Origin: Planctomycetota bacterium
Lineage (GTDB): Bacteria > Planctomycetota > PLA2
Direction of reading: 5' to 3'
DNA: 50,285 nucleotides
Assembly: GCA_027297745.1 (NCBI GenBank)
Contig: JAPUHK010000140.1
Coordinates: forward strand, 1-50,285
The position numbers were made by a program, and so were the translations under genes. The notes beneath the pieces are model-generated. The model did no database searches. It was given only the letters and a program-made list of their open reading frames with translations, and had not been told where the DNA came from. Below, piece by piece: positions 4,412 through 15,215 of the stretch (positions are counted from its first letter, which is position 1; each line of letters starts with the position of its first letter).

Positions 4412-5530
4412 TTGACCGGCGCCGCACCGTCCGCAAACGCCGCGGAGCACAAACACCCGCTCTGGAAGAAGCTGCTGCTCGCGGCCTCGACGGTCTTTCT
4501 CTTGCTGCTCGTGCTCGAGGGCGCGCTGCGCATCGCCGGAGCCAAGCCCAAGACGGCGACGGTCTTGAGCCACTTCTTTCAGCACCACGCTTCGTACGGC
4601 TGGCACGGAATTGCCGGAGCCTCCTTTCAATTCGCCACGGTCGATTTCGACGTTCGCATCTCCCACGACGACGACGGGCTGCGGCGCTGCGGGCTACAGT
4701 CGCGCATCGACGAGGACGCCGCCTTCCCGGGGACCATGGTTTGGGTGCTCGGCGATTCGACCACATGGGGTTGGGGCATCGCCGACGAGGAGACCTACGT
4801 CGACCGCCTGAACCAGCTCGGCCCGGACGATCTGGAGTTCCGCAATCTCGGCATGACCGGCTTCGCGACCCCCCAGGAGCACTTGCTGCTGACGGACTAC
4901 TTCGAGCGCGGGCGGCGTCCCGATCTGGTGCTGATCCTCTATTCGGGCAACGACCTGAATGAGAACCTGAGCAAGGGCGGCATCCGCCCCCGCTTCGAGG
5001 TCGTGGACGGCAAGGTCGAGCTCCGCAACCACCCGGTTCCCCGCAGTGCGAAGTGGAACGTCAGCGCGCGGCTCAAGAAGAGCTCGCTGGTCTACAACTA
5101 CCTCCACTTCTACCTCACCACCCTCAAGTTGAAGTTGAGGACGAGGGCCCGGGAGGCGAAGTACGAGCAGGCCAGGGAGCGCAGCCGGTTGGGCCGCGTG
5201 CCGCCGACCGAAGAGCAACTCGTCGCGTTGCGGGAGGGCTACGGGATGATCCAGCGGCTCTGCCAGGACCATGGTGTGCGCTTCGCCGTAATCGCGAAGA
5301 TCCGGAACGAGGCCCGGGACGTTGCCTTGGTCTGCCCCGAGCTCGGGGTGCCGGTGCTGGACCTGAGCGACGCATGGACGCGTCATCTAGAGGACGAGCA
5401 TGCTCCGTCCCTGAGATTCCGCTCGGATCCACATGCGAACGCAACCGGCCACCGCCTGATCGCCGAGAGCCTCTATCCGAAGGTCAGCGCTCTCTTGGCC
5501 GAACACGGCCCGCCCGCCAGGTCGGGCTAG
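4412..5530 (+). CDS. Membrane-anchored SGNH/GDSL hydrolase
   Basis: About 372 residues. A short cytoplasmic N-terminus is followed by one membrane anchor (KKLLLAASTVFLLLLVLEGALRI) and a periplasmic SGNH hydrolase domain. The family blocks are visible: block I GDSTTWGWG carries the nucleophilic Ser, the oxyanion Asn/Gly block is NLGMTG, block III is SGND, and block V is DPHANATGH with the catalytic Asp and His. Such anchored proteins often act as O-acetyl esterases or transferases on surface polysaccharides, but the substrate here is unknown. The start is uncertain: TTG at 4412 fits the TATACT box; the ATG at 4376 is the alternative. Its upstream part overlaps the UspA remnant on the other strand. 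Confidence 0.75.
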   Translation: MTGAAPSANAAEHKHPLWKKLLLAASTVFLLLLVLEGALRIAGAKPKTATVLSHFFQHHASYGWHGIAGASFQFATVDFDVRISHDDDGLRRCGLQSRIDEDAAFPGTMVWVLGDSTTWGWGIADEETYVDRLNQLGPDDLEFRNLGMTGFATPQEHLLLTDYFERGRRPDLVLILYSGNDLNENLSKGGIRPRFEVVDGKVELRNHPVPRSAKWNVSARLKKSSLVYNYLHFYLTTLKLKLRTRAREAKYEQARERSRLGRVPPTEEQLVALREGYGMIQRLCQDHGVRFAVIAKIRNEARDVALVCPELGVPVLDLSDAWTRHLEDEHAPSLRFRSDPHANATGHRLIAESLYPKVSALLAEHGPPARSG

Positions 5531-5541
5531 GATCCCGCGCG

Positions 5542-6432
5542 ATGGGAAAGCGTGCGCTGGCCGCCACGGTGTTGCTCGTGGGCGTCGTCGCGGCGCAGGA
5601 CGGCGCAGCCTGGAAGCTCCCCGCCGCGGGACCCGAAGTCCTGCTGAAGCTCAAGCTGTCGAAGCGCACGTACATCCTCGGCCCGGAAAGCCGCGCCCCG
5701 AAGGAGGCCGATGGTCCCGAGCGCATCCAGCCGAAGCGGGAGAGCTACGACCAGGGCTTGCTGAAGGTGGCCCGCTACCAGATCGAGCACGGAGAGCTCG
5801 ACAAGGCCGAAAAGCTGATTGCGGAGGTGGTGGAACGCAACACAGCCGATGCCGGTGCGCTCACGCTGAAGGCGCTGCTCTTGCACAAACAGGGCAAACC
5901 GAAGCAAGCCCTTGCCGCCTTGCGCGAGAGCCTGATCCAGAACCGCCGTAATCCCGATGCGTGGCGCCTGCTGCGGCAGGTCGCCAAGGACCTCGGCCGC
6001 AAGGTCGTGCGCCCCCGTTTCCGCATCCGGGCCTGGGTCAAGCAGGTACGCAAGGGAATCGAAGTCGCCTTCGCTCCCGACACGGAGAAGAACTTCCCCT
6101 GGATCTACTACGCCTCGGCGCGTGCCGTCTACCGCTACGAGGGGGAGTTTCAGGCGGCCTTCCCTGAAGCCAAGGAGTACCGCTTCACCTTCCGCGAGCA
6201 GTTGTTCGCGATCGGCGCGCTCGTTCGCGGAACGGAGTCCGAGCAGAAGGAGAACAAAGTGGCCTCCGACCTCAAGCGCCTGCTGCGCGAGAGCCGCAAG
6301 AAGGACGTCGTCGCCTACGTCTTCTGGGCCACCTACCCCGAGCCCCTGCCAGCCACGCCCGAGGCGTGCTTCGGGGCCCTACGGCCGAAGCTGGAGCGCT
6401 ACTTCGACGAGCACATCGTCGTGAACCGCTAG
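5542..6432 (+). CDS. Secreted TPR-containing protein
   Basis: A 296-residue exported protein (signal MGKRALAATVLLVGVVAAQ). Residues about 70-150 hold two to three TPR-like helix pairs (YQIEHGELDKAEKLIAEVVERNTADAGALTLKALLLHKQGKPKQALAALRESL). The C-terminal 140 residues form an unrecognised domain (PWIYYASARAVYRYEGEFQAAFPEAKEYRFTFREQ). It begins 11 nt after the SGNH gene stop; TAGGAT lies 8 nt upstream of the ATG. It probably acts as a periplasmic scaffold. A frame open upstream of this ATG is the shadow of the SGNH gene. Confidence 0.75.
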   Translation: MGKRALAATVLLVGVVAAQDGAAWKLPAAGPEVLLKLKLSKRTYILGPESRAPKEADGPERIQPKRESYDQGLLKVARYQIEHGELDKAEKLIAEVVERNTADAGALTLKALLLHKQGKPKQALAALRESLIQNRRNPDAWRLLRQVAKDLGRKVVRPRFRIRAWVKQVRKGIEVAFAPDTEKNFPWIYYASARAVYRYEGEFQAAFPEAKEYRFTFREQLFAIGALVRGTESEQKENKVASDLKRLLRESRKKDVVAYVFWATYPEPLPATPEACFGALRPKLERYFDEHIVVNR

Positions 6433-6491
6433 CGCCTGGCCGGCGCTGTACGTTCTGGGGCGGCGTCTTCGCCGGGCTTGCGCGGCCCGGC

Positions 6492-6497
6492 TACAAT
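6492..6497 (+). promoter_or_regulatory. Candidate -10 box upstream of the M64 peptidase
   Basis: GCTACAAT occurs here, in the same context as at 11512 and 24282. It lies 10 nt before an ATG at 6508 and 61 nt before the GTG at 6559. No matching -35 is apparent. Confidence 0.4.
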
Positions 6498-6558
6498 TTC
6501 GACGCCGATGGACTCAGGTGCCGCGCGGATCCACCGATACGAAGGGCGAGGAACTCTC

Positions 6559-8112
6559 GTGCGCCGGCTGCGCTTGATCACCCTGCTCTCCCTTCTGCTC
6601 CTGCTCGGGATGCCCGTGCGCGCGCAGGACGACGAGCAGGACGACGCCCGGGAGACGAACGACGAGGCGCTGGCCGCCTACGACAAAGCGTTGAAGGCGC
6701 AGCGCAAGCGCAGATGGAAGTCGGCCAAGCGGGCCTTCCGCAGGTTCATCAAGCGCTATCCTGAGTCCCCGCTGGTCGAGGACGCTCGGGAGCGTTCCGG
6801 CGACAACGCCTACCTGGGCTGCGAGATCCTGTGGAAGAGCGGGCCCGCCTCGCGCCGCATCGACGTCGCGGTCATGGGCGACGGCTTCACGATCGATGCC
6901 TCCGACCAGAACAGGTTGGGGAAGTGGGCGGAGCTGTGCATCGACGTTCTGTGGCACGAGAAGGGTTTCGGGCACTACAAGAACTATTTCAACGTCTACT
7001 TCGTGCGCCTCGCGTCCCTGGAGGAGGGTGTCGACCCGAACCTGAGCCCGGAGGAGATCGAGAAGAAGCGCAAGAAGAACAAGCAGCGCCGGCGCGCCCT
7101 GAACTACAAGATCGACTACAGCACCGCGCTCGACGCCAAGGCCGCCGGGCCGCAAGGCCAGGTCATGATGAACCGCGGGCTGGTCTACAAGTGGCTGGAG
7201 ATCGCCCACAAGAAGGTGCCGGGCGCGGGCGACGACCGTCTGGTGATCGCCTTTGCTCAGTTCGGCAAGCTGGGCATGGGCGGCGGCGGCATCGCTCACG
7301 TCGGTCGGCCGGACAAATCGATCACGACCCACGAGTTCGGGCACGCGTTTGTGGGCCTGCTCGACGAGTACCAGGGCAACCCGACTCCGCCGCCCCCCGG
7401 CGGCCGGCGCTGGGTGCGCGCGGCCAACGCGTCCGTCACCGACGACCCCCAAAAAGTGCCGTGGGCCCACTTCCTGAAGCAAAGGGTCAAGCGGGTCGGC
7501 GTCTACGAAGGCGGTGCGACCTACAACAAGGGCGTGTGGCGCCCCGCGCGCACGTGCGCCATGAACGCGGCGGGCGCGACAGCCTTCTGCCCCGTCTGCC
7601 GGGAAGCGGCGATCCTGGTCATCTACGAGTACGTGCGGCCCATCGACACATACGCGCCCGGCACCGAGACGGAGATCAAGGCGCTGCAGGGCGACGACTC
7701 CAAGATCACGGTCACGCCGATGCAACCCAAGAAGCCGCTCAAAGTGCGCTGGTACGTCGCTGTGCGCGAGCCCGAGGACCCGGGCGTGGACGACCTCACC
7801 ATCGAAGAGGACCCCGAGCAGTGGCCGCCCATGTACGCGGGCCGCGGCGGCCGCGGGTTCGGCGGCAAGCGCGCGAACGCGGACCGCAGCGAGTACGACG
7901 AGCCGCCTCCCGGTGAGCTGAACAAGCTCGCCAAGAGGCTGAAGGGCAAGCCGCGGCGTTACGCGTTCCCGCTCGGCAAGTTGCCGCCGGGGCTGTACAC
8001 GATCACGGTCGAGGTCAAGGACGAGACCAAGTTCGTGATCAAGGATCCGAAGCACCTGCTAGAGGATCGCCAGACCTGGCAGGTGCGCGTCGATCCCAAG
8101 CCCAAGCGGTAA
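6559..8112 (+). CDS. Secreted M64-family (IgA-peptidase-like) metallopeptidase
   Basis: A 517-residue exported zinc peptidase. The signal peptide MRRLRLITLLSLLLLLGMPVRAQ begins at a GTG with GAGGAA 5 nt upstream; an ATG at 6508 in the same frame would give a longer, less typical leader. After an acidic linker and a TPR-like helical segment (about residues 35-75) comes the M64 catalytic domain. Residues near 258-271 read HEFGHAFVGLLDEY: two zinc His, the catalytic Glu and the downstream Asp-Glu. ARTCAMNAAG and FCPVCREA follow, as expected before the end of the domain. The C-terminal 150 residues are beta-rich, with a Gly/Arg-rich insert (MYAGRGGRGFGGKR). It probably degrades proteins outside the cell; the substrate is unknown. 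Confidence 0.88.
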   Translation: MRRLRLITLLSLLLLLGMPVRAQDDEQDDARETNDEALAAYDKALKAQRKRRWKSAKRAFRRFIKRYPESPLVEDARERSGDNAYLGCEILWKSGPASRRIDVAVMGDGFTIDASDQNRLGKWAELCIDVLWHEKGFGHYKNYFNVYFVRLASLEEGVDPNLSPEEIEKKRKKNKQRRRALNYKIDYSTALDAKAAGPQGQVMMNRGLVYKWLEIAHKKVPGAGDDRLVIAFAQFGKLGMGGGGIAHVGRPDKSITTHEFGHAFVGLLDEYQGNPTPPPPGGRRWVRAANASVTDDPQKVPWAHFLKQRVKRVGVYEGGATYNKGVWRPARTCAMNAAGATAFCPVCREAAILVIYEYVRPIDTYAPGTETEIKALQGDDSKITVTPMQPKKPLKVRWYVAVREPEDPGVDDLTIEEDPEQWPPMYAGRGGRGFGGKRANADRSEYDEPPPGELNKLAKRLKGKPRRYAFPLGKLPPGLYTITVEVKDETKFVIKDPKHLLEDRQTWQVRVDPKPKR

Positions 8113-8209
8113 CAGTTACTCTTCCGAGTCGTCGTGTCTTGCTGCCGGCGGCCACGTTGCGCCGTTTGTCCCGCGGCATGCGTGCCGCAGCGTGGAGCGT
8201 AACGGTTAC
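8109..8209. repeat. Intergenic element with GTAACnGTTAC ends and a GC palindrome
   Basis: Between two convergent genes: GTAACAGTTAC at 8109-8119 and GTAACGGTTAC at 8199-8209 bracket a stem-loop, GCGGCA-TGCG-TGCCGC, at 8173-8188. Both gene stop codons (TAA) lie inside the 11-bp end palindromes. The same combination occurs at 45692-45883. It probably acts as a two-way terminator or is a small repeat family. Confidence 0.6.
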
Positions 8210-8682
8210 TTCGTGCGCCAGAGACGACGCGCCAGCGCGGTTTGACCGGCGTGCCACGTGTCGTGGCGGATGACCATCGCCAGGAACTCGTCCATCCGCA
8301 TGCCGTTTCCCACGACCTTCTGCAGGTCTGCATCCTCGAGATCCGCGATGGCCGCGCGCTGATCGTTGTGCGCTGCGTCGAGCTCCGCGCGGTCCTCCTC
8401 GAGCGACGCGGACGGCGTCCGCTCGGGAACCGGCGGGCGGTCCACGCTGTCCGGTGAGCGGATGAGCAGCGCGTAGTGCCGCTTGCAATGCGCGATGTGC
8501 GCGACCTGCCAGCGGATCGTGCCGGGCGGCGGCCAACCCTCCTCGCGCTCTTCAGCGGCGTAACAGGGCGGCTGCCAGGCGGCTTCTTCTTCGCTCACGC
8601 CGTCGAGCACCGCGCGCAGCGACTCCCACTTGTGCTCCCAAGCATCGTCGAGTTGCCTCAGGTACGTTTCCACGCCCGTCAC
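8206..8682 (-). CDS. DinB-family metal-dependent protein
   Basis: A 158-residue four-helix DinB/YfiT-like protein. The metal-ligand histidines are visible: WQVAHIAHCKRHYA (residues about 60-70) and IRHDTWHAGQTALARR near the C-terminus (H-x3-H). DinB-like proteins include thiol transferases and damage-inducible proteins, and many members are uncharacterised. The GTG start at 8682 has GGGAGGA 7 nt upstream. Its stop lies inside the repeat element shared with the M64 gene end. It is followed upstream, on the same strand, by the small zinc-binding gene. Confidence 0.85.
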   Translation of the reverse strand: MTGVETYLRQLDDAWEHKWESLRAVLDGVSEEEAAWQPPCYAAEEREEGWPPPGTIRWQVAHIAHCKRHYALLIRSPDSVDRPPVPERTPSASLEEDRAELDAAHNDQRAAIADLEDADLQKVVGNGMRMDEFLAMVIRHDTWHAGQTALARRLWRTK

Positions 8683-8755
8683 GGGGTGTCCTCCCGGCGC
8701 GCGTCAACAGCGGCACCGGCCGGCCGGGACCGCTGCGGCTCTGAAATGTGCGACG

Positions 8756-8956
8756 TTACGTGCCGACGGCCTTTAGAAACTCGGCGACCGCCGCCGACTT
8801 CGCGTCGTGATCGGCGGCCGTCTTGATCTTCTGAAGGTGTCCGGGGGCGTCGACCTTGTCGGTGCACCCGTCGCAAAGCCTCACCGTCGTCGGGGCGGTT
8901 CCCTGAAAGACGGAGTGGTCGAACGTCGCATGCTGTCCGCACATCATGCAGCGCAT
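8756..8956 (-). CDS. Small McsA-like zinc-finger protein
   Basis: A 66-residue protein with two CxxC pairs 23 residues apart: CMMCGQHATFDHSVF... and ...VRLCDGC. This spacing resembles the first zinc finger of McsA, the activator of arginine kinase McsB, and UvrB/UvrC-type motifs, but the rest of McsA is missing. The tail (AADHDAKSAAVAEFLKAVG) is helical. The start is firm: GGGAGGAA lies 5 nt before the ATG. No arginine kinase or clp gene is nearby, so the partner is unknown. Confidence 0.7.
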   Translation of the reverse strand: MRCMMCGQHATFDHSVFQGTAPTTVRLCDGCTDKVDAPGHLQKIKTAADHDAKSAAVAEFLKAVGT

Positions 8957-9011
8957 CGCTTCCTCCCTTCGTGGGCCAGATCATACCGGGACCACTTCAC
9001 CCAGGGAAGGG

Positions 9012-10106
9012 CTACTGCTTCATCGTTACAACCCGCTGCGGGAACGGGATTTCGACGCCTGCCTCGTTGAAGCGCTTGTAGATGGCGGTGTTCAGGGCGT
9101 CGACGGCGCGCCCGTGGACCACGGGCTCGGCGACATAGGCGCGCAGCTGGAAGAGGAGCGCCGAGTCCCCGAACTCGCGGAAACGCACGCTGGGCGGCGG
9201 ATCCTGGTCGATCAACTCCTCCTTGAGCGCGACGTCCAGCAGGATCGCGCGCACCTGGTCGATGTCGCTTCCGTAAGCCACCCCGACGTTCACGCGCACG
9301 CGCATCTTCATATACGGGCCGCCCGTCTCGTTCATGATCTTGGCGTTGGCCATGATCGCGTTGGGCAGCGTGATCTCGATGTCGTCGCGCGTGATCAACC
9401 GCGTCGAGCGGATGCCGATGTCGGTCACCCGCCCGCGCTCGCCGCTGTCCAGCACGATGAAGTCGCCGATCTTGTAAGGCGCGTCCGCCATGATGAAGAT
9501 ACCGGCGAACAGGTTGGCGAGGGTGTCCTTGGCCGCGAAGCCGACGGCGATGCCCACGATGCCGGCGGACGCCATGAAGGGCGTGAGGTCCTTGTCCCAG
9601 ACGGCCAGGATGGACCAGATCCCGCCCGCGACGATGAGCAGCTTGGAGGTGATGTCGTAGAGCGGCAGCGAGCGGGTCTGGATCCACTGGAACTGGTCCG
9701 CGCGGCGTGCCATCGCGTCCAGCAGCACGTCCGCGATGCGCAAGAGGCCCCGGATCCAGAACAGGATCGCGATCGTGACCGCGGTCCTGTCGAGCGTCGC
9801 GAGTGAATCCTCGCTGAACCCCCACTCGAATTGGACGGCTGCGCGGTCCAGTGTGGCCCCCAGGCCCAGCAGCACGATCGTGACGAACAGCGGCAGGCCG
9901 AACGCGCGAACGATGTGGTCGTCGATCTGCGTGCTCGTCTTGCGCGTCAGGCCGAGCAGGAGACGCGTCAGGATCCAGCGGATCAGCCAGGCGCCTACGA
10001 CCGTGGCGACCAGAACGTGCCACCACTCGAGCTTGCCCCAATACTCCTGGATCTCTTCCAAACTAGGCACCCGCCCATGATGCGATCCGGGTGGGACGCT
10101 CCCCAT
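9012..10106 (-). CDS. MscS-family mechanosensitive channel
   Basis: A 364-residue inner-membrane channel. Four to five hydrophobic segments occupy residues about 28-200. The pore-lining helix is FMASAGIVGIAVGFAAKDTLANLFAGIFIM, with the Ala/Gly packing expected of TM3. The MscS beta domain follows directly (YKIGDFIVLDSGERGRVTDIGIRSTRL, then NAIMANAKIMN), with a C-terminal alpha/beta domain. It would release solutes on hypo-osmotic shock. A GTG at 10070 is an alternative start. It lies 36 bp downstream of the predicted selenoprotein gene and is probably co-transcribed with it. Confidence 0.9.
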   Translation of the reverse strand: MGSVPPGSHHGRVPSLEEIQEYWGKLEWWHVLVATVVGAWLIRWILTRLLLGLTRKTSTQIDDHIVRAFGLPLFVTIVLLGLGATLDRAAVQFEWGFSEDSLATLDRTAVTIAILFWIRGLLRIADVLLDAMARRADQFQWIQTRSLPLYDITSKLLIVAGGIWSILAVWDKDLTPFMASAGIVGIAVGFAAKDTLANLFAGIFIMADAPYKIGDFIVLDSGERGRVTDIGIRSTRLITRDDIEITLPNAIMANAKIMNETGGPYMKMRVRVNVGVAYGSDIDQVRAILLDVALKEELIDQDPPPSVRFREFGDSALLFQLRAYVAEPVVHGRAVDALNTAIYKRFNEAGVEIPFPQRVVTMKQ

Positions 10107-10142: not shown

Positions 10143-11429
10143 CTACTCGATGACCTTGAGCTGCAGCGTCTCCCGCTTGCCGTTGCGGATGCGCTCGACC
10201 GGGACCCTGGTGCCCACCTTCTGCGTCAGGCGGAACCAGGCGTGGTAGTGGTTCATGTCCCGGAAGTCGTGTTTGCCCGCGACGGAGAAAATCACGTCGC
10301 CCTTGCGGATGCCCGCCTGCCGGGCATTATGGCCGGTTTGCCTGTTCGGGCCCCAGGTGACCAGGTAGTTGACGCGGAAAGCGAAGTGATCCTCGGGCAG
10401 GCCGAGCGCCTTCTTCTCGGCCGCGTCCAGGGGCTTGCCGCCGAAGCCGGGCTTGGGGCTCAGCGACCACTTCGAGCCGCGCCACGAATAGACCAGCGGC
10501 GTGGGCTCCTTCCATCCCTTGGGCAGCCGCAGCGTCTTCGTCCAGGCCTCACGATCGCTCTTGAAGCCGAGCGCCAGCCGCGTGCTGCCGCCCGAGGTCT
10601 CGTGCAGGACGCGCTGCACGTCGCCGAAAGTGCGCACGCTGCGCCCGCCGATCCCGGTGATGTGGTGGCCCGCCTCGACACCCGCCTTGTCCGCCACGGA
10701 GCCGCGTGCGACCTGCTTGACGAGCGTCTGGTCGTCGCGGTCCAGCGTCAGGCCGAGCTGCACCGGGTCGGGCCACAGCCAGGCCTGCTCGCGGGTCCAG
10801 CGCCGCCGCTCCTGCAGGTCCTCGATCCGCCCCTCGTAGACCATGTGGCAGTGATAGCAATCCCGCGCCTTGCCGTTCTTGATCTCGCGCGCCCAGCGCG
10901 GGATCTGCTCGATCGTGCGCTTCTTCTTGCGCCTTGGCGGCCGCGGGTTCTTCACGTACTCGTCGTGGTCCTGAAGCGTCTCGTTCAGCACGCGCACGAA
11001 GCCCGGCAGCGAGAGGTGCGACAGGGCGCTGCTGGAATCGCGCCCCGCGTAGGTGCGATACACCGTCCCGTCCGCGTTCATGAGCAGCGCCGCGAACGTG
11101 AGGTCGTAGTCGAAACGGTAGACGTTGAGGTCGACCCCCGCCATGTTCGTGACGCGGACGGGGATGTAGTTCTTGGTGGCCTCGATCAGCTCAGCGGTGG
11201 GACGGACAACCTGCCCGTCGAAGGATGCGCAGTCCTTTCAGGGCTCTCATCTGAAGACGGCCAGCAAGGGCCTGCCCGTCTTTCGTGCTTCGGCCCGCGC
11301 CGCGTCGAGGTCGGTGCGCCACAGGATGCCGACCGGGCCCACCTCGGCCGTCGCCTGTGCGCCCTGTCCTGCCACCCACGCGGCGGCCCCGAGCACCGCC
11401 AATCCCGCCGCCAACCGCAGTCCCTTCAT
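10143..11429 (-). CDS. Predicted selenoprotein: thioredoxin-like UxxU, CxxCH and two PDZ domains
   Basis: One continuous frame of 428 codons, interrupted only by TGA at 11247-11249 and 11238-11240. Reading TGA as selenocysteine gives RPLLAVFR-U-E-P-U-KDC, U61 and U64, exactly where a thioredoxin-like fold carries its CxxC. The start ATG has GGAGG 5 nt upstream and opens a signal peptide (MKGLRLAAGLAVLGAAAWVAG). After the thioredoxin-like domain (about residues 35-150, VYRFDYDLTFAALLMNADGTVYRTYAGRD) come CYHCH at 191-195 (a c-type heme or metal motif) and two PDZ domains (about 205-290 and 345-428). Cys homologues with this domain order are, from memory, common in planctomycetes. A SECIS-like hairpin follows the TGAs. 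It is probably a periplasmic redox protein; substrate unknown. Alternatives: a pseudogene or a readthrough artefact, both less likely because the frame resumes perfectly. Confidence 0.8.
11201..11219 (-). promoter_or_regulatory. SECIS-like hairpin of the selenoprotein gene
   Basis: On the minus strand, GACGGGCA pairs with UGUCCGUC (eight pairs, one of them G-U) around a GGU apical loop. The loop GG lies about 27 nt after the second UGA and 36 nt after the first, within the distance known for bacterial SECIS elements (roughly 16-37 nt) read by SelB. The loop context GCAGGU resembles that of the E. coli fdhF SECIS. One hairpin might serve both UGAs. Confidence 0.65.
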
Positions 11430-11475
11430 CGCGTCCTCCAACGTTCTTTAAGGGTAGCCTGAACGTAGGTCGTTC

Positions 11476-11555: not shown

Positions 11556-14500
11556 ATGCTGAATCTTACGGGCAGCAGCCTCGGCATCTACGAGGTCGGC
11601 GCGGAGATCGGACGGGGCGGTATGGGCACCGTCTATTGCGCCCGTACGACCGCAGCGGGCCCCGCGGGCAAGCCCGGCAGCATCGTCGCCGTGAAGGTCT
11701 TCCACCCCGAGCTGGTCGAGGACGAGCGCATCGTCCAGCGCTTCCAGCGCGAGGCGGAGATCGGGATGAAGATCGACCACCCCCACGTGGTCAGCACATA
11801 CGAGATCTGCACCGCGGAGGTGGACGGCAAGCCCTACTGCTTCATGGTCATGGAGCTGATCGAGGGCCAGTCCCTGCGCGAGGTTCTGGTCGAGCTGGGG
11901 ACGCTGCCCGAGCACCTCATCTACCAGATCGCCGACCAGGTGCTGGACGCGCTCGGTGCCGTGCACGACGTAGGCATGATCCATCGCGACGTGAAGCCCG
12001 AGAACATCGTGCTCACGCTGGAGCACAAGGTGCTGCTGATGGACCTCGGCGTGGCGCGCCTCCAGCAGGAGGGGCGCGACCTGACGCGGGCGGGGGAGTT
12101 CGTCGGTTCCATTCACTACGCCGCGCCCGAGCAGTTCACGGACCAGGACAATGTCGGCCCGCTGATCGATCTGTACAGCTTCGGCGTTGTCCTGTACGAG
12201 CTGGCCACCGGCAAGAACCCCTTCGGCGCGGCCGAGCTGACCACTCTGCTCACACAGAAGGTGCAGGGGCTCGTGCGCCGGCCGCGTCTGGCCTCGCGCG
12301 ATATCGACCCCTTCCTGGACGAGGTCATCCTGACCTGCCTCAAGTCCGATCCGGCTGAGCGCTTCAGCTCCTGCGGAGAGCTGCGCGCCGTCATGGCTCA
12401 GGGCGAGGACGGAACGTGGTGGCAGGAGCGTACGCAGGGCGAAGCCTTCCCCGCGGCCACGCGTGCGCTCAAGTGCTTGCGGGCGCAGCGCGAAACGCCG
12501 CTGGTCGGGCGCGGTTCGGCGCTGGACCACCTGCACAGCACGATCGAACGCGCGCAGACCGGCGCCGGCCGGGTCGTGCTGCTGGCCGGCGCAGCCGGCA
12601 CGGGCAAGTCGCGCCTCGTGCACGAGTTCCTCGAAGAGTTGATCGCGCCCGACGGGCCCATCCTGCTCGCGGGCCGTTGCCCCGAGGGGGGCGGCCGCGC
12701 CTACCAAGCGCTCATCGAAGCGGCGCACGGGTTCTTCGGGGAGCGCGCGGACCTCGAGCAGCGCCTGGAACAGCTGCTGCCGGAGATGGTGGGGGACGTG
12801 CCGAAGGTGGCGCAGTTCCTGCGCGGCGAAAGCGATGAGCTTCTCAGGGACACGCTGCTGAGCGCGTATGGCAGCCTGCTGCGCAACTTGAGCGCCGGGC
12901 GCCCGGTCGTGCTGGTGATCGAGGACCTGCACCGCGCTGGGCCGGAGACGATCGAGCTGTTCGGCTATCTGGCGCGCATCGCGCCCGAGATGGCGCTCCT
13001 GATGGTCGGCACCTACCGGCCCGAGGCCGTCGAAGGCGGCTCCGAGTTGCACTCCATGATCACCGTGACTGCGGCCCGCCCCGAGGCCGACCAGGTCTCC
13101 ATCGAGCCGCTCTCGCGCGAGTCGGCGGACGAGGTCATCCGCTGCATCGTGAAGCAGGAGCGCACCGTCCGCTCGCTGGGCCGCCCGCTGTACGAACGCA
13201 GCGACGGAAACCCGCACGTCTTGCTCGAGATGCTGGCGCACCTGCGCTCGACTGGCGTGCTGCAAGAGACGGAGGACGGGCTGGCCGTCTCCGGCAACAT
13301 CGAGGACGCTGACCTGCCCTCCGGCCTGCGCGACCTGATCGCCCGCAAGCTCCAGGAGCTCGAGCCCGACGAGCGCGAGATGCTGGACGCGGCGGCCGTG
13401 CAGGGTGCGGAGTTCGAGGCCTCGTTGCTGGCAGCCGCAACGGGGCAGAAACGCATCCGCCTGCTCAAGCGCCTGGCCGTGCTGGAACGCAAGCACCGGC
13501 TGGTGCTCAGCTCCGGCAAGAACGCCTTCCGCTTCGCGAGCCAGATCCTGCATCACGTCGTGTACGCGCAGATCCGCGGCCAGAGGCGCACGGATTACCA
13601 CGCGAAGTTCGCGGAAGCGCTCCTGGAAGCCCAGGAGGGCAAGGACGCCTGGTCCGGCGAGAGCGCGTACAGCTACGTGCACCACTTGCTGCGCGCGGGG
13701 CGTATGGCCGAGGCGAAGGAGCACCTGTCCGCGGCGGTGGAGCACTGCGCCACGAACCACCACCCGGCCCACGCGGCCGCCTTCCTCGGACAGCTGCTGG
13801 CTGCGCTGGGCGAAAACAACTCGGAAGCGCGCTTCGACGTTTGCATCAAGCTCGCGGAGGTGCACGCCATGCTCGGCCGGCGTGAGGAGCGCATGGGTGC
13901 GCTGAACCGGGCCGGCGTCGAGGCGGCCAGGCTAGGCTTGCCCGGGCCGCGCGGCCGCGTGCATGCGGGCCTGGCCGAGGCTTACCTGCGCGCGGGCAGC
14001 TACGACAAGGCGGGGGCCGAAGCGCGCGAGGGGCTTGCGCTCGCCACCGAGGCGGGCGATCGCGGCGGCGAAGCGGACTGCCTGCACACGTTGGGCTCGA
14101 TCGCCTACCGGCGCGGCGATTTCTCCGCATGCGCGGCCTTCTGCAAGGACGCGCTCGTCATCCGCCGCGCGACCGGCGACGCCCGCGGCGAAGGCGCCGC
14201 CATGCAGGCGCTCGGGGCGGTCATGCCCGAGATCGGCCAGGTGGACGAGGCGCTCGATACGAAGAGGGCGGCGCTCGAGATCTACCGCGAGCTCGGCTAC
14301 CGACGTGGCGAGGGGGCCGCGCTCAACAACCTGGGCAACTCGTACATGGAGGCGCAGCAGGTTCAGGAGGCCGTCGTCTGTTACGAGCAGGCCATTCAGC
14401 TGGCGCGCGACGTGGGCGACCTGCCGGCCGAGGCGAACGCCCGCTACAACAGGGGGCGCGCGTTGGCCGTGCTGGCGCGCATCGAGGACGCGCGCGACAG

Positions 14501-15215
14501 CCTCGAACGGGCCCTCGATCTGTTCCGCGAGATCGGCGATCCCAGCGGCGAGGCCGAAGTGCTCGATGAGCTCGGCTCGGCCGTCGCCACCGTCGGCGAG
14601 CGCGAGGAGGCGCTGACCTTCCTCGAGTCCGCACGCAACTCGGCGTGCCGCACCGGCCAGAACGCGCTCTTGGGGCGCGTGCTGCGCCATCTCGCGAACG
14701 TGCACCACGAGAACGGCTCGCTCGACAAGGCGTGGCGCTTCTACGTGGAGGCATTGGGTCTCGCCACGGCCCGCAGCCGGATCTTGACGCTGGCGGACAT
14801 GGGCAACGCCGCCCTCAAGGAGGGCGCGTACGACCGTTCCGTGAAGCTATTGCAGGAAGCGGTGGAGTCGGGCAAGGGAGGGAGCCGCATGCTGCTCTCC
14901 TTGTGCCGGCTGGCGCGGGCGCACAAGGAGGCGGGGCGCGACGACAAGGCCGAGGAGTACGGCAAGCAGGCCGAGAGGCTGCTCGAGGAGCAGGCGCAGA
15001 TCGCCCCCCAGTACGGGCCGGAGATCTACTACAGCCTTGGCACGGTCTTCGAGGTGGGGGAGCGCGGCCGGCGCTACCTGGCTACCGCAAACGAGCTGCT
15101 GGGCGCGCGCACGCGCTCCATCCGCAGCATCGTGCACCGCCAGCACTACCTCACGATGACCTGGCCCAACCGCGAGATCCTCGACGAGGCCAGGCGCATC
15201 TTCCAGCAGAGCTGA
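11556..15215 (+). CDS. Ser/Thr protein kinase fused to AAA-type ATPase and TPR array
   Basis: A 1219-residue regulator. The kinase domain spans residues about 10-275: glycine loop GRGGMGTVY, catalytic Lys near 47, HRDVKPEN at 143-150, DLG (for DFG) at 163-165, and the activation segment ending in APEQF, so it looks active. A STAND/AAA-type ATPase follows: Walker A GAAGTGKS near 344-351 and a Walker B-like VVLVIEDLHRA near 455. The last 500 residues are TPR-like repeats (for example GEGAALNNLGNSYMEAQQVQEAVVCYEQAI). No membrane segment is seen, so it is cytoplasmic. The layout resembles PknK-like and myxobacterial or planctomycete sensor kinases, in which the TPR part senses a partner. The target is unknown. 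Confidence 0.92.
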   Translation: MLNLTGSSLGIYEVGAEIGRGGMGTVYCARTTAAGPAGKPGSIVAVKVFHPELVEDERIVQRFQREAEIGMKIDHPHVVSTYEICTAEVDGKPYCFMVMELIEGQSLREVLVELGTLPEHLIYQIADQVLDALGAVHDVGMIHRDVKPENIVLTLEHKVLLMDLGVARLQQEGRDLTRAGEFVGSIHYAAPEQFTDQDNVGPLIDLYSFGVVLYELATGKNPFGAAELTTLLTQKVQGLVRRPRLASRDIDPFLDEVILTCLKSDPAERFSSCGELRAVMAQGEDGTWWQERTQGEAFPAATRALKCLRAQRETPLVGRGSALDHLHSTIERAQTGAGRVVLLAGAAGTGKSRLVHEFLEELIAPDGPILLAGRCPEGGGRAYQALIEAAHGFFGERADLEQRLEQLLPEMVGDVPKVAQFLRGESDELLRDTLLSAYGSLLRNLSAGRPVVLVIEDLHRAGPETIELFGYLARIAPEMALLMVGTYRPEAVEGGSELHSMITVTAARPEADQVSIEPLSRESADEVIRCIVKQERTVRSLGRPLYERSDGNPHVLLEMLAHLRSTGVLQETEDGLAVSGNIEDADLPSGLRDLIARKLQELEPDEREMLDAAAVQGAEFEASLLAAATGQKRIRLLKRLAVLERKHRLVLSSGKNAFRFASQILHHVVYAQIRGQRRTDYHAKFAEALLEAQEGKDAWSGESAYSYVHHLLRAGRMAEAKEHLSAAVEHCATNHHPAHAAAFLGQLLAALGENNSEARFDVCIKLAEVHAMLGRREERMGALNRAGVEAARLGLPGPRGRVHAGLAEAYLRAGSYDKAGAEAREGLALATEAGDRGGEADCLHTLGSIAYRRGDFSACAAFCKDALVIRRATGDARGEGAAMQALGAVMPEIGQVDEALDTKRAALEIYRELGYRRGEGAALNNLGNSYMEAQQVQEAVVCYEQAIQLARDVGDLPAEANARYNRGRALAVLARIEDARDSLERALDLFREIGDPSGEAEVLDELGSAVATVGEREEALTFLESARNSACRTGQNALLGRVLRHLANVHHENGSLDKAWRFYVEALGLATARSRILTLADMGNAALKEGAYDRSVKLLQEAVESGKGGSRMLLSLCRLARAHKEAGRDDKAEEYGKQAERLLEEQAQIAPQYGPEIYYSLGTVFEVGERGRRYLATANELLGARTRSIRSIVHRQHYLTMTWPNREILDEARRIFQQS

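Follow-up and report, generated by a model that had tools for sequence, protein, structure and literature searches.

A probable Trx7/PDZ selenoprotein gene of Planctomycetota with two in-frame UGA codons, a SECIS hairpin that may serve both, and a second hairpin that accompanies the first UGA

SelL is a selenoprotein with a UxxU motif, and the rules for bacterial SECIS elements are stated per UGA; to our knowledge, it is not settled how a ribosome gets past two adjacent UGAs without termination. Published lists hold other UxxU selenoproteins, namely Prx-like, the FmdB family and the UxxU metal-binding family NF041115 (PMC13188914, PMC9312934), Prx-like 2 (PMC2398784) and variants of SELENOW (PMC7539508). 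They carry two selenocysteines (Sec) in a CxxC-type site, as the protein described here would, but they belong to different protein families. NF041115 was not found when 392 genomes from the phylum were searched, but the controls of that search matched nothing either. Our gene lies in a stretch of 50,285 nucleotides from a Planctomycetota bacterium, which as a whole is referred to below as the window, and its protein is a full-length member of NCBIfam NF041199, "Trx7/PDZ domain-containing (seleno)protein", covering model positions 2-390 of 390 with the same domain order.

That this family already had a name escaped an earlier sequence-only reading of the window, and the printed form of the family is CxxU. 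NF041199 is listed as CxxU with one Sec in PMC13188914, and a "PDZ domain-containing protein", also CxxU, is listed in PMC9312934; in contrast to both printed lists, the site is UxxU in the window protein and in 65 further distinct members. The Global Ocean Sampling study described a selenoprotein named "Putative secreted serine protease MucD" with a CxxU site and a SECIS-like element, its family then consisting of two Sec sequences and 12 Cys homologues, and the passages on "MucD" in that paper make no mention of a second Sec or a second hairpin (PMC2398784). The "MucD" selenoprotein and NF041199 are apparently the same family, since the reviews list the PDZ/Trx7 entry under the citation of the Global Ocean Sampling study.

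The gene is a single minus-strand frame of 428 codons followed by TAG and interrupted by two in-frame TGAs (Table 1). These are nine bases, or three codons, apart in the peptide context VFR-U-EP-U-KDC, and they fall at the CxxC site of a predicted exported protein composed of a Thioredoxin_7 domain, a CxHCH motif and two PDZ domains. The sequence-only reading had proposed two TGAs in one frame at a CxxC position, a start codon with GGAGG upstream, and a CYHCH and two PDZ domains downstream, and its coordinates hold when read on the minus strand. It had also expected standard annotation to split the gene, and a plain ORF finder does return two pieces, 11247-11441 (64 aa) and 10143-11144 (333 aa). 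No further UGA-interrupted frame in the window was printed by a crude scan that asked for at least 60 open codons before the TGA under strict GC limits, a design that would miss genes with a short part upstream of the TGA.

Table 1. Coordinates of the selenoprotein gene and its features in the window
Feature	Position	Strand	Basis
Trx7/PDZ selenoprotein gene, two internal TGA	10143..11429	-	frame; NF041199 398.4 bits vs cut-off 300
Start codon ATG	11429-11427	-	sequence
Stop codon TAG	10143-10145	-	sequence
GGAGG, ribosome-binding-like, 5 nt upstream of ATG	11435..11439	-	sequence
Signal-peptide-like N-terminus, residues 1-26	11352..11429	-	read by eye from sequence
UGA1, first Sec codon, residue 61	11247..11249	-	family: TGA in 66/136, Cys in 70/136
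UGA2, second Sec codon, residue 64	11238..11240	-	family: TGA in 98/136, Cys in 38/136
Hairpin A, immediately 3' of UGA2, 5 bp AAGGA/UCCUU	11221..11237	-	family-wide, UxxU only; weak in the window
Hairpin B, bacterial SECIS	11201..11219	-	8 bp GACGGGCA/UGUCCGUC, GGU loop at 11209-11211
Thioredoxin_7 with U-x-x-U, residues 37-118	11076..11321	-	PF13899, 40 bits vs 27
CYHCH, residues 191-195	10845..10859	-	CxHCH in 136/136 distinct members
PDZ domain 1, residues 225-286	10572..10757	-	Pfam, over cut-off
PDZ domain 2, residues 369-426	10152..10325	-	Pfam, over cut-off

PF13899 was found in 70/70 members of our alignment A3. An AlphaFold model built from 70 family members has a mean pLDDT of 92.9, with values below 50 in segments 1-6, 12-26 and 29-32, and the AF2 model of the domain has a thioredoxin fold in which strand 26-30 and helix 39-46 (domain numbering) flank the site. 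AGR2, ERp18 (TXNDC12), DsbD-gamma and DsbH are among the closest solved folds, at TM scores of about 0.5-0.66, and the sequence-profile matches of the domain include 3fk8, 2k8v, 1sen and AGR2; we know of no CxHCH linker with two PDZ domains in AGR2, ERp18, DsbD-gamma or DsbH. A third Cys stands three residues beyond the second site (UxxUxxC, window residues 61-67) in 60/66 UxxU members and in 126/136 of all forms, and is possibly a resolving residue. We considered an HtrA/MucD serine protease and rejected it: Pfam gives Thioredoxin_7 and PDZ only, with no trypsin-like protease domain, and the HtrA matches lie in the PDZ part.

At E 1e-15 the family has matches in 128 of the 392 genomes from the phylum, 109 of them over the family cut-off, and a pattern scan for close relatives returned two loci, both from Planctomycetota. 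The 136 distinct members that we sampled from the matches listed, the window included, comprise 66 UxxU, 32 CxxU, 38 CxxC and 0 UxxC proteins, CxxC being undersampled because the sample draws on listed matches only and leaves out fourteen listed "no stop" rows. Five domain hits that lack the motif (L040 and the second pieces of L129, L130, L135 and L143) were dropped, as were identical proteins and the copies L022 (of L113), L023 (of L101) and L077 (of L041). The structure alignments kept 61 of the 66 UxxU and all 32 CxxU rows. The second site, at which the printed CxxU form has its Sec, is TGA in the window and in most of the sample (Table 1), and the window has TGA at the first site too. Cys homologues had been suggested as a check, and C is indeed aligned with both U in the 38 CxxC members, so that the in-frame TGAs align with the Cys of homologues, as in other bacterial selenoproteins. 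TGA occupies both sites in 66 members and the second site alone in 32, and the double TGA is confirmed as real and not a chance occurrence.

A tree from which the site columns had been left out shows 20 changes at the first position and 4 at the second. These states fit an order CxxC -> CxxU -> UxxU; the tree is unrooted, and gain and loss are indistinguishable in it. One locus (L105, G058 contig C255), in a genome of 12.3 Mb, has adjoining UxxU and CxxU copies. In two further loci, L138 and L254 (the latter outside the 136), the UxxU frame ends after PDZ1 with TGA or TAA, and these are either shorter forms or damaged genes.

The genome from which the window comes (3.69 Mb, 312 contigs) has selA, selB, selD and tRNA-Sec, all over their cut-offs, which were the genes that the sequence-only reading had named as a check. 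selD, selA and selB adjoin on contig C106 (L144, G000, about 4762-9179) and tRNA-Sec is on C217. The selD gene itself has a TGA, in the context SAGG-U, and its hairpin shares the CAGGU motif with hairpin B and has its loop 33 nt from the selD UGA; a 4-bp hairpin lies between the two. Across the genomes with listed family rows, selA was found in 69 of the 75 that have a TGA-bearing member among the members listed, versus 14 of the 44 with listed uninterrupted members only when strong matches are counted (Fisher 6e-12), or 20 of 44 when six weak matches (E 1e-42 to 1e-83) are added (Fisher 3e-8). The six TGA-form genomes in which selA was not found (G004, G005, G171, G217, G263 and G279) are 67-92% complete. 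With Cys homologues, sel genes and the SECIS rules discussed below all favourable to the earlier proposal of a selenoprotein, the window gene is very probably a UxxU selenoprotein, a two-Sec variant within a known selenoprotein family.

Hairpin B was placed exactly by the sequence-only reading, GGU loop included. The distances that it gave, 27 and 36 nt, are counts to the first loop base; the gap before the loop is 26 nt from UGA2 and 35 nt from UGA1. According to the published rules, the loop of a bacterial SECIS lies 16-37 nt from the UGA and contains a G, with limits on loop size and energy (PMC13188914), and hairpin B agrees with them in loop size, loop G, spacing and energy and is conserved in the U forms only. 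Folded alone, the window's hairpin B has an energy of -10.5 kcal/mol (z -4.11), which none of 200 shuffles equalled and which is well within the SECIS limit of -7.5 kcal/mol or lower; hairpin A alone, at -2.3 kcal/mol, would fall outside that limit. The loop of B begins 25-26 nt after UGA2 in 63/66 UxxU and 29/32 CxxU genes (92/98 U forms) and in 0/38 CxxC genes. A second scoring finds B stems of 4 bp or more in 63/66 UxxU, 31/32 CxxU and 8/38 CxxC genes, and the three UxxU genes with no scored B (L087, L098 and L122) have, by eye, a B with one mismatch. The loop is AGGU, AGUU, GGUU or CGGU in 66/66 UxxU and 30/32 CxxU genes; AGGU or CGGU occurs at the same position in 6/38 CxxC genes as well. 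Pair-preserving changes on both sides were seen in 7 of the 8 pairs, and 56/66 UxxU genes taken singly have a B that beats their own synonymous control at p 0.05. Since CxxU genes have B at 25-26 nt, B occurs without A, and on the tree it does not follow UGA1 (1.0 same versus 0.8 opposite, of 10 pairs).

The sequence-only reading missed hairpin A, the 17 bases of which are located precisely between UGA2 and hairpin B. We noticed it by eye as complementary arms that flank the next Cys codon immediately behind UGA2, and the rows that suggested the idea are also those used to test it. A stem of at least 4 bp is present in 63/66 UxxU genes, 8/32 CxxU genes and 11/38 CxxC genes (Fisher for UxxU versus CxxU, 4.8e-13). 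Partition-function folding, which does not depend on this stem scoring, gives 4.29 expected pairs in A for UxxU, 1.03 for CxxU and 0.61 for CxxC, CxxU being slightly above CxxC (p 0.015), and at least 3 expected pairs are reached in 56/66, 1/32 and 0/38 genes, respectively. When compared with a synonymous control, in which the protein sequence is kept and the codons are drawn from the same gene, UxxU genes have an excess of pairs (4.29 versus 1.22; 60/66 above control, p 4.5e-12; 37/38 genus means positive), and no excess was found for CxxU (1.03 versus 0.92, p 0.54) or CxxC (0.61 versus 0.52, p 0.83). Because the UxxU genes exceed controls that encode the same protein, the excess resides in the choice of codons. 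Taken singly, 19/66 UxxU genes beat their synonymous control at p 0.05, which places the signal in the set. The window is not one of the 19: its hairpin A alone is weak (z -0.81; p 0.23 against its own synonymous control), and a 57-nt segment of the window folds no better than shuffles (z 0.58).

The association with UGA1 is also seen on the tree: of 13 independent pairs, A changes with UGA1 in 8.9 and against it in 0.3 (median p 0.008, range 0.002-0.109); among the Sec forms only, the figures are 7.3 and 0.2 of 10 pairs (median p 0.016, range 0.008-0.125). For example, in the subfamily L130-L143 the UxxU genes (L131, L133, L135, L140 and L143) have A stems of 5-6 bp around TGY, whereas the CxxU genes (L130, L132, L134, L136, L137 and L139) have 2-3 bp at that place. 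The three UxxU genes that lack A by the criterion used are L083, L091 and L117. At one locus, L116, CxxC and UxxU copies adjoin, and the CxxC copy has a 5-bp hairpin A and no hairpin B, as if a UxxU gene had reverted to Cys. Two further classes were searched after the prediction had been fixed; the genomes that they returned were among those already used, and the sole gene from outside the table, L254, has 2.69 expected A pairs, which is under the line of 3, above the CxxU mean of 1.03 and below the UxxU mean of 4.29.

Little or nothing of hairpin A came out of consensus folding or of folding the window sequence by itself; it emerged solely from the tests across the family, with their synonymous controls, and from the tree. 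Among 61 rows, 23 have AU and 16 have CG at one pair of A; with helix A fixed in a single register, 64.9% of the cells are paired in UxxU rows versus 48.7% in CxxU rows. RNAalifold recovered 3 bp of B and none of A from the 61 UxxU rows, and no structure from the 32 CxxU rows. The two-helix structure as a whole beats column shuffles in the CxxU rows too, though by less than in UxxU. The proposal that one SECIS serves the two UGAs was incomplete: hairpin B was borne out, and across the family a second hairpin, A, goes with UGA1. Hairpin A is likely to be needed for UGA1. Neither a two-Sec Trx7/PDZ protein nor a second hairpin was found in the literature listings, although Haft and Tolstoy 2025 may already say UxxU, and the term "tandem SECIS" was not found in the ten papers listed by one of the searches. 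As far as these searches show, a hairpin A that accompanies UGA1 is a new RNA feature.

Hairpin B is like the bacterial SECIS of genes with a single UGA, such as the selD of the same genome, in its short stem, its GGU loop and its distance of 26 nt from UGA2. Unlike them, it would have to serve UGAs at both 26 and 35 nt, and in UxxU genes it is preceded by A. The explanation that we favour, with somewhat more confidence than doubt, is that the product is a UxxU protein for which the SECIS B serves both UGAs, A being a spacer for UGA1 that folds away. Two UGAs nine bases apart would both be read as selenocysteine to give a U-x-x-U active site, and a single SelB-binding element, B, would serve both codons. 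While the ribosome stands at UGA1, hairpin A would fold up the intervening 17 bases and so bring B near the decoding site despite the 35 nt; with the ribosome nine bases further on, at UGA2, A would be melted and B would lie at 26 nt, as it does in CxxU genes. On the role of A as a spacer taken by itself, we lean slightly towards it.

A comparison that bears on the spacer comes from selD genes of the phylum. Where the SECIS loop is at least 30 nt away, the intervening stretch has 3.39 expected pairs versus 1.96 in synonymous controls (13 genes, 10 above control, p 0.04), and where the loop is at most 28 nt away the values are 0.53 and 0.53 (11 genes). A first, cruder scoring had given 11.45 versus 9.79 for the far group (11 genes) and 5.88 versus 6.46 for the near group (17 genes). 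In this comparison 24 of 50 loci passed the filter, the rows were chosen by a motif rule and some of the SECIS calls are doubtful, so that the support it may lend to the spacer idea is thin.

Several other explanations have to be weighed against a single SECIS with a spacer. The TGAs might be ordinary stops, marks of a pseudogene or sequencing errors, with the downstream part a separate or dead gene, and a plain ORF finder does split the gene. However, 98 of the 136 distinct members have TGA at one or both of exactly these codons, the SECIS is conserved, the sel genes are present and 69 relatives align full length to the window protein at 29-56% identity; this explanation appears largely contradicted by the relatives, and we regard it as very improbable. 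It could also be that hairpin A is a second SECIS, each UGA having its own SelB-binding hairpin. Among the 63 UxxU genes with A, its loop begins 13-17 nt after UGA1 (16 nt in 37 of them) and 50 have a G in the first two loop positions, which is near the published rules, and A is tied to UGA1, not to the presence of UGA2 by itself. Yet the loop G comes mostly from the conserved Cys codon TGY, and the B-type loop sequences GGU or AGUU occur in the loop-A stretch in only 1/66 UxxU genes. Since loop A lacks a SelB-type sequence, we prefer a spacer to a second SECIS, which we consider unlikely. Alternatively, B alone might serve both UGAs while A acts in a different way, for instance by slowing down the ribosome or impeding the release factor at UGA1. 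This possibility is supported by the published range of 16-37 nt, which already admits the 35 nt between UGA1 and B with no spacer (PMC13188914), and by the selD of the same genome, the loop of which is at 33 nt. By itself, however, it leaves unexplained both the exact place of A between UGA2 and B and the intervening hairpins that far selD SECISs tend to have, and it seems to us rather improbable.

The nature of the CxHCH motif raises an alternative of a different kind, compatible with any of those above, in which a c-type heme on the motif would be the second redox element, making the product mainly a small exported cytochrome. CxHCH, which contains the heme-attachment motif CxxCH, is present in 136/136 members, and the genome encodes cytochrome c assembly proteins (PF01578, two matches over the cut-off). 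The only columns of alignment A3 in which C, H or M is conserved at 90% or more, however, are C61, C64, C67, C191, H193, C194 and H195; the lack of any other conserved His or Met leaves no evident sixth ligand and counts against heme, and the two Cys of CxHCH could equally form a second dithiol or a metal site. We regard the cytochrome as possible but doubtful.

The product with two Sec would be an exported redox protein, probably related to thiol/disulfide or peroxide chemistry. UxxU is a diselenide site of low potential, and the two Sec could work together as a diselenide/selenol pair on a redox partner that the PDZ domains may bind and perhaps hold. The passage on diselenide potentials in PMC10134987 does not treat the UxxU motif. 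Clustering of 474 neighbour ORFs around the family loci gave no constant partner gene, and gene context therefore gives no function. The most widespread cluster, from 10 loci, is apparently a wrong-frame ORF; it is followed by protein kinases, which occur at 8 loci in varying positions. Genes near the selenoprotein gene in the window encode an MscS channel, a DinB-like protein, an M64 peptidase, an FKBP and a Ser/Thr kinase with AAA and TPR regions, the last of these lying at 11556-15215 in divergent orientation to the selenoprotein gene.

In the Planctomycetota genomes sampled the two-Sec site is the commoner U form, with 66 UxxU versus 32 CxxU distinct proteins, whereas the printed list gives one Sec, and gene finding of the plain kind cuts the UxxU window protein in two. 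Because the family offers close UxxU and CxxU relatives and natural before-and-after pairs, the addition of a second Sec can be tested with a simple reporter. A more general proposal, on which we are evenly divided, is that of a tandem-UGA module in which one SECIS would recode both codons, a hairpin that folds away would set the distance for UGA1, and A and UGA1 would have been repeatedly gained or lost together. If this is true, the change from Cys to Sec at the first site would be accompanied by the evolution of an RNA spacer inside the coding sequence.
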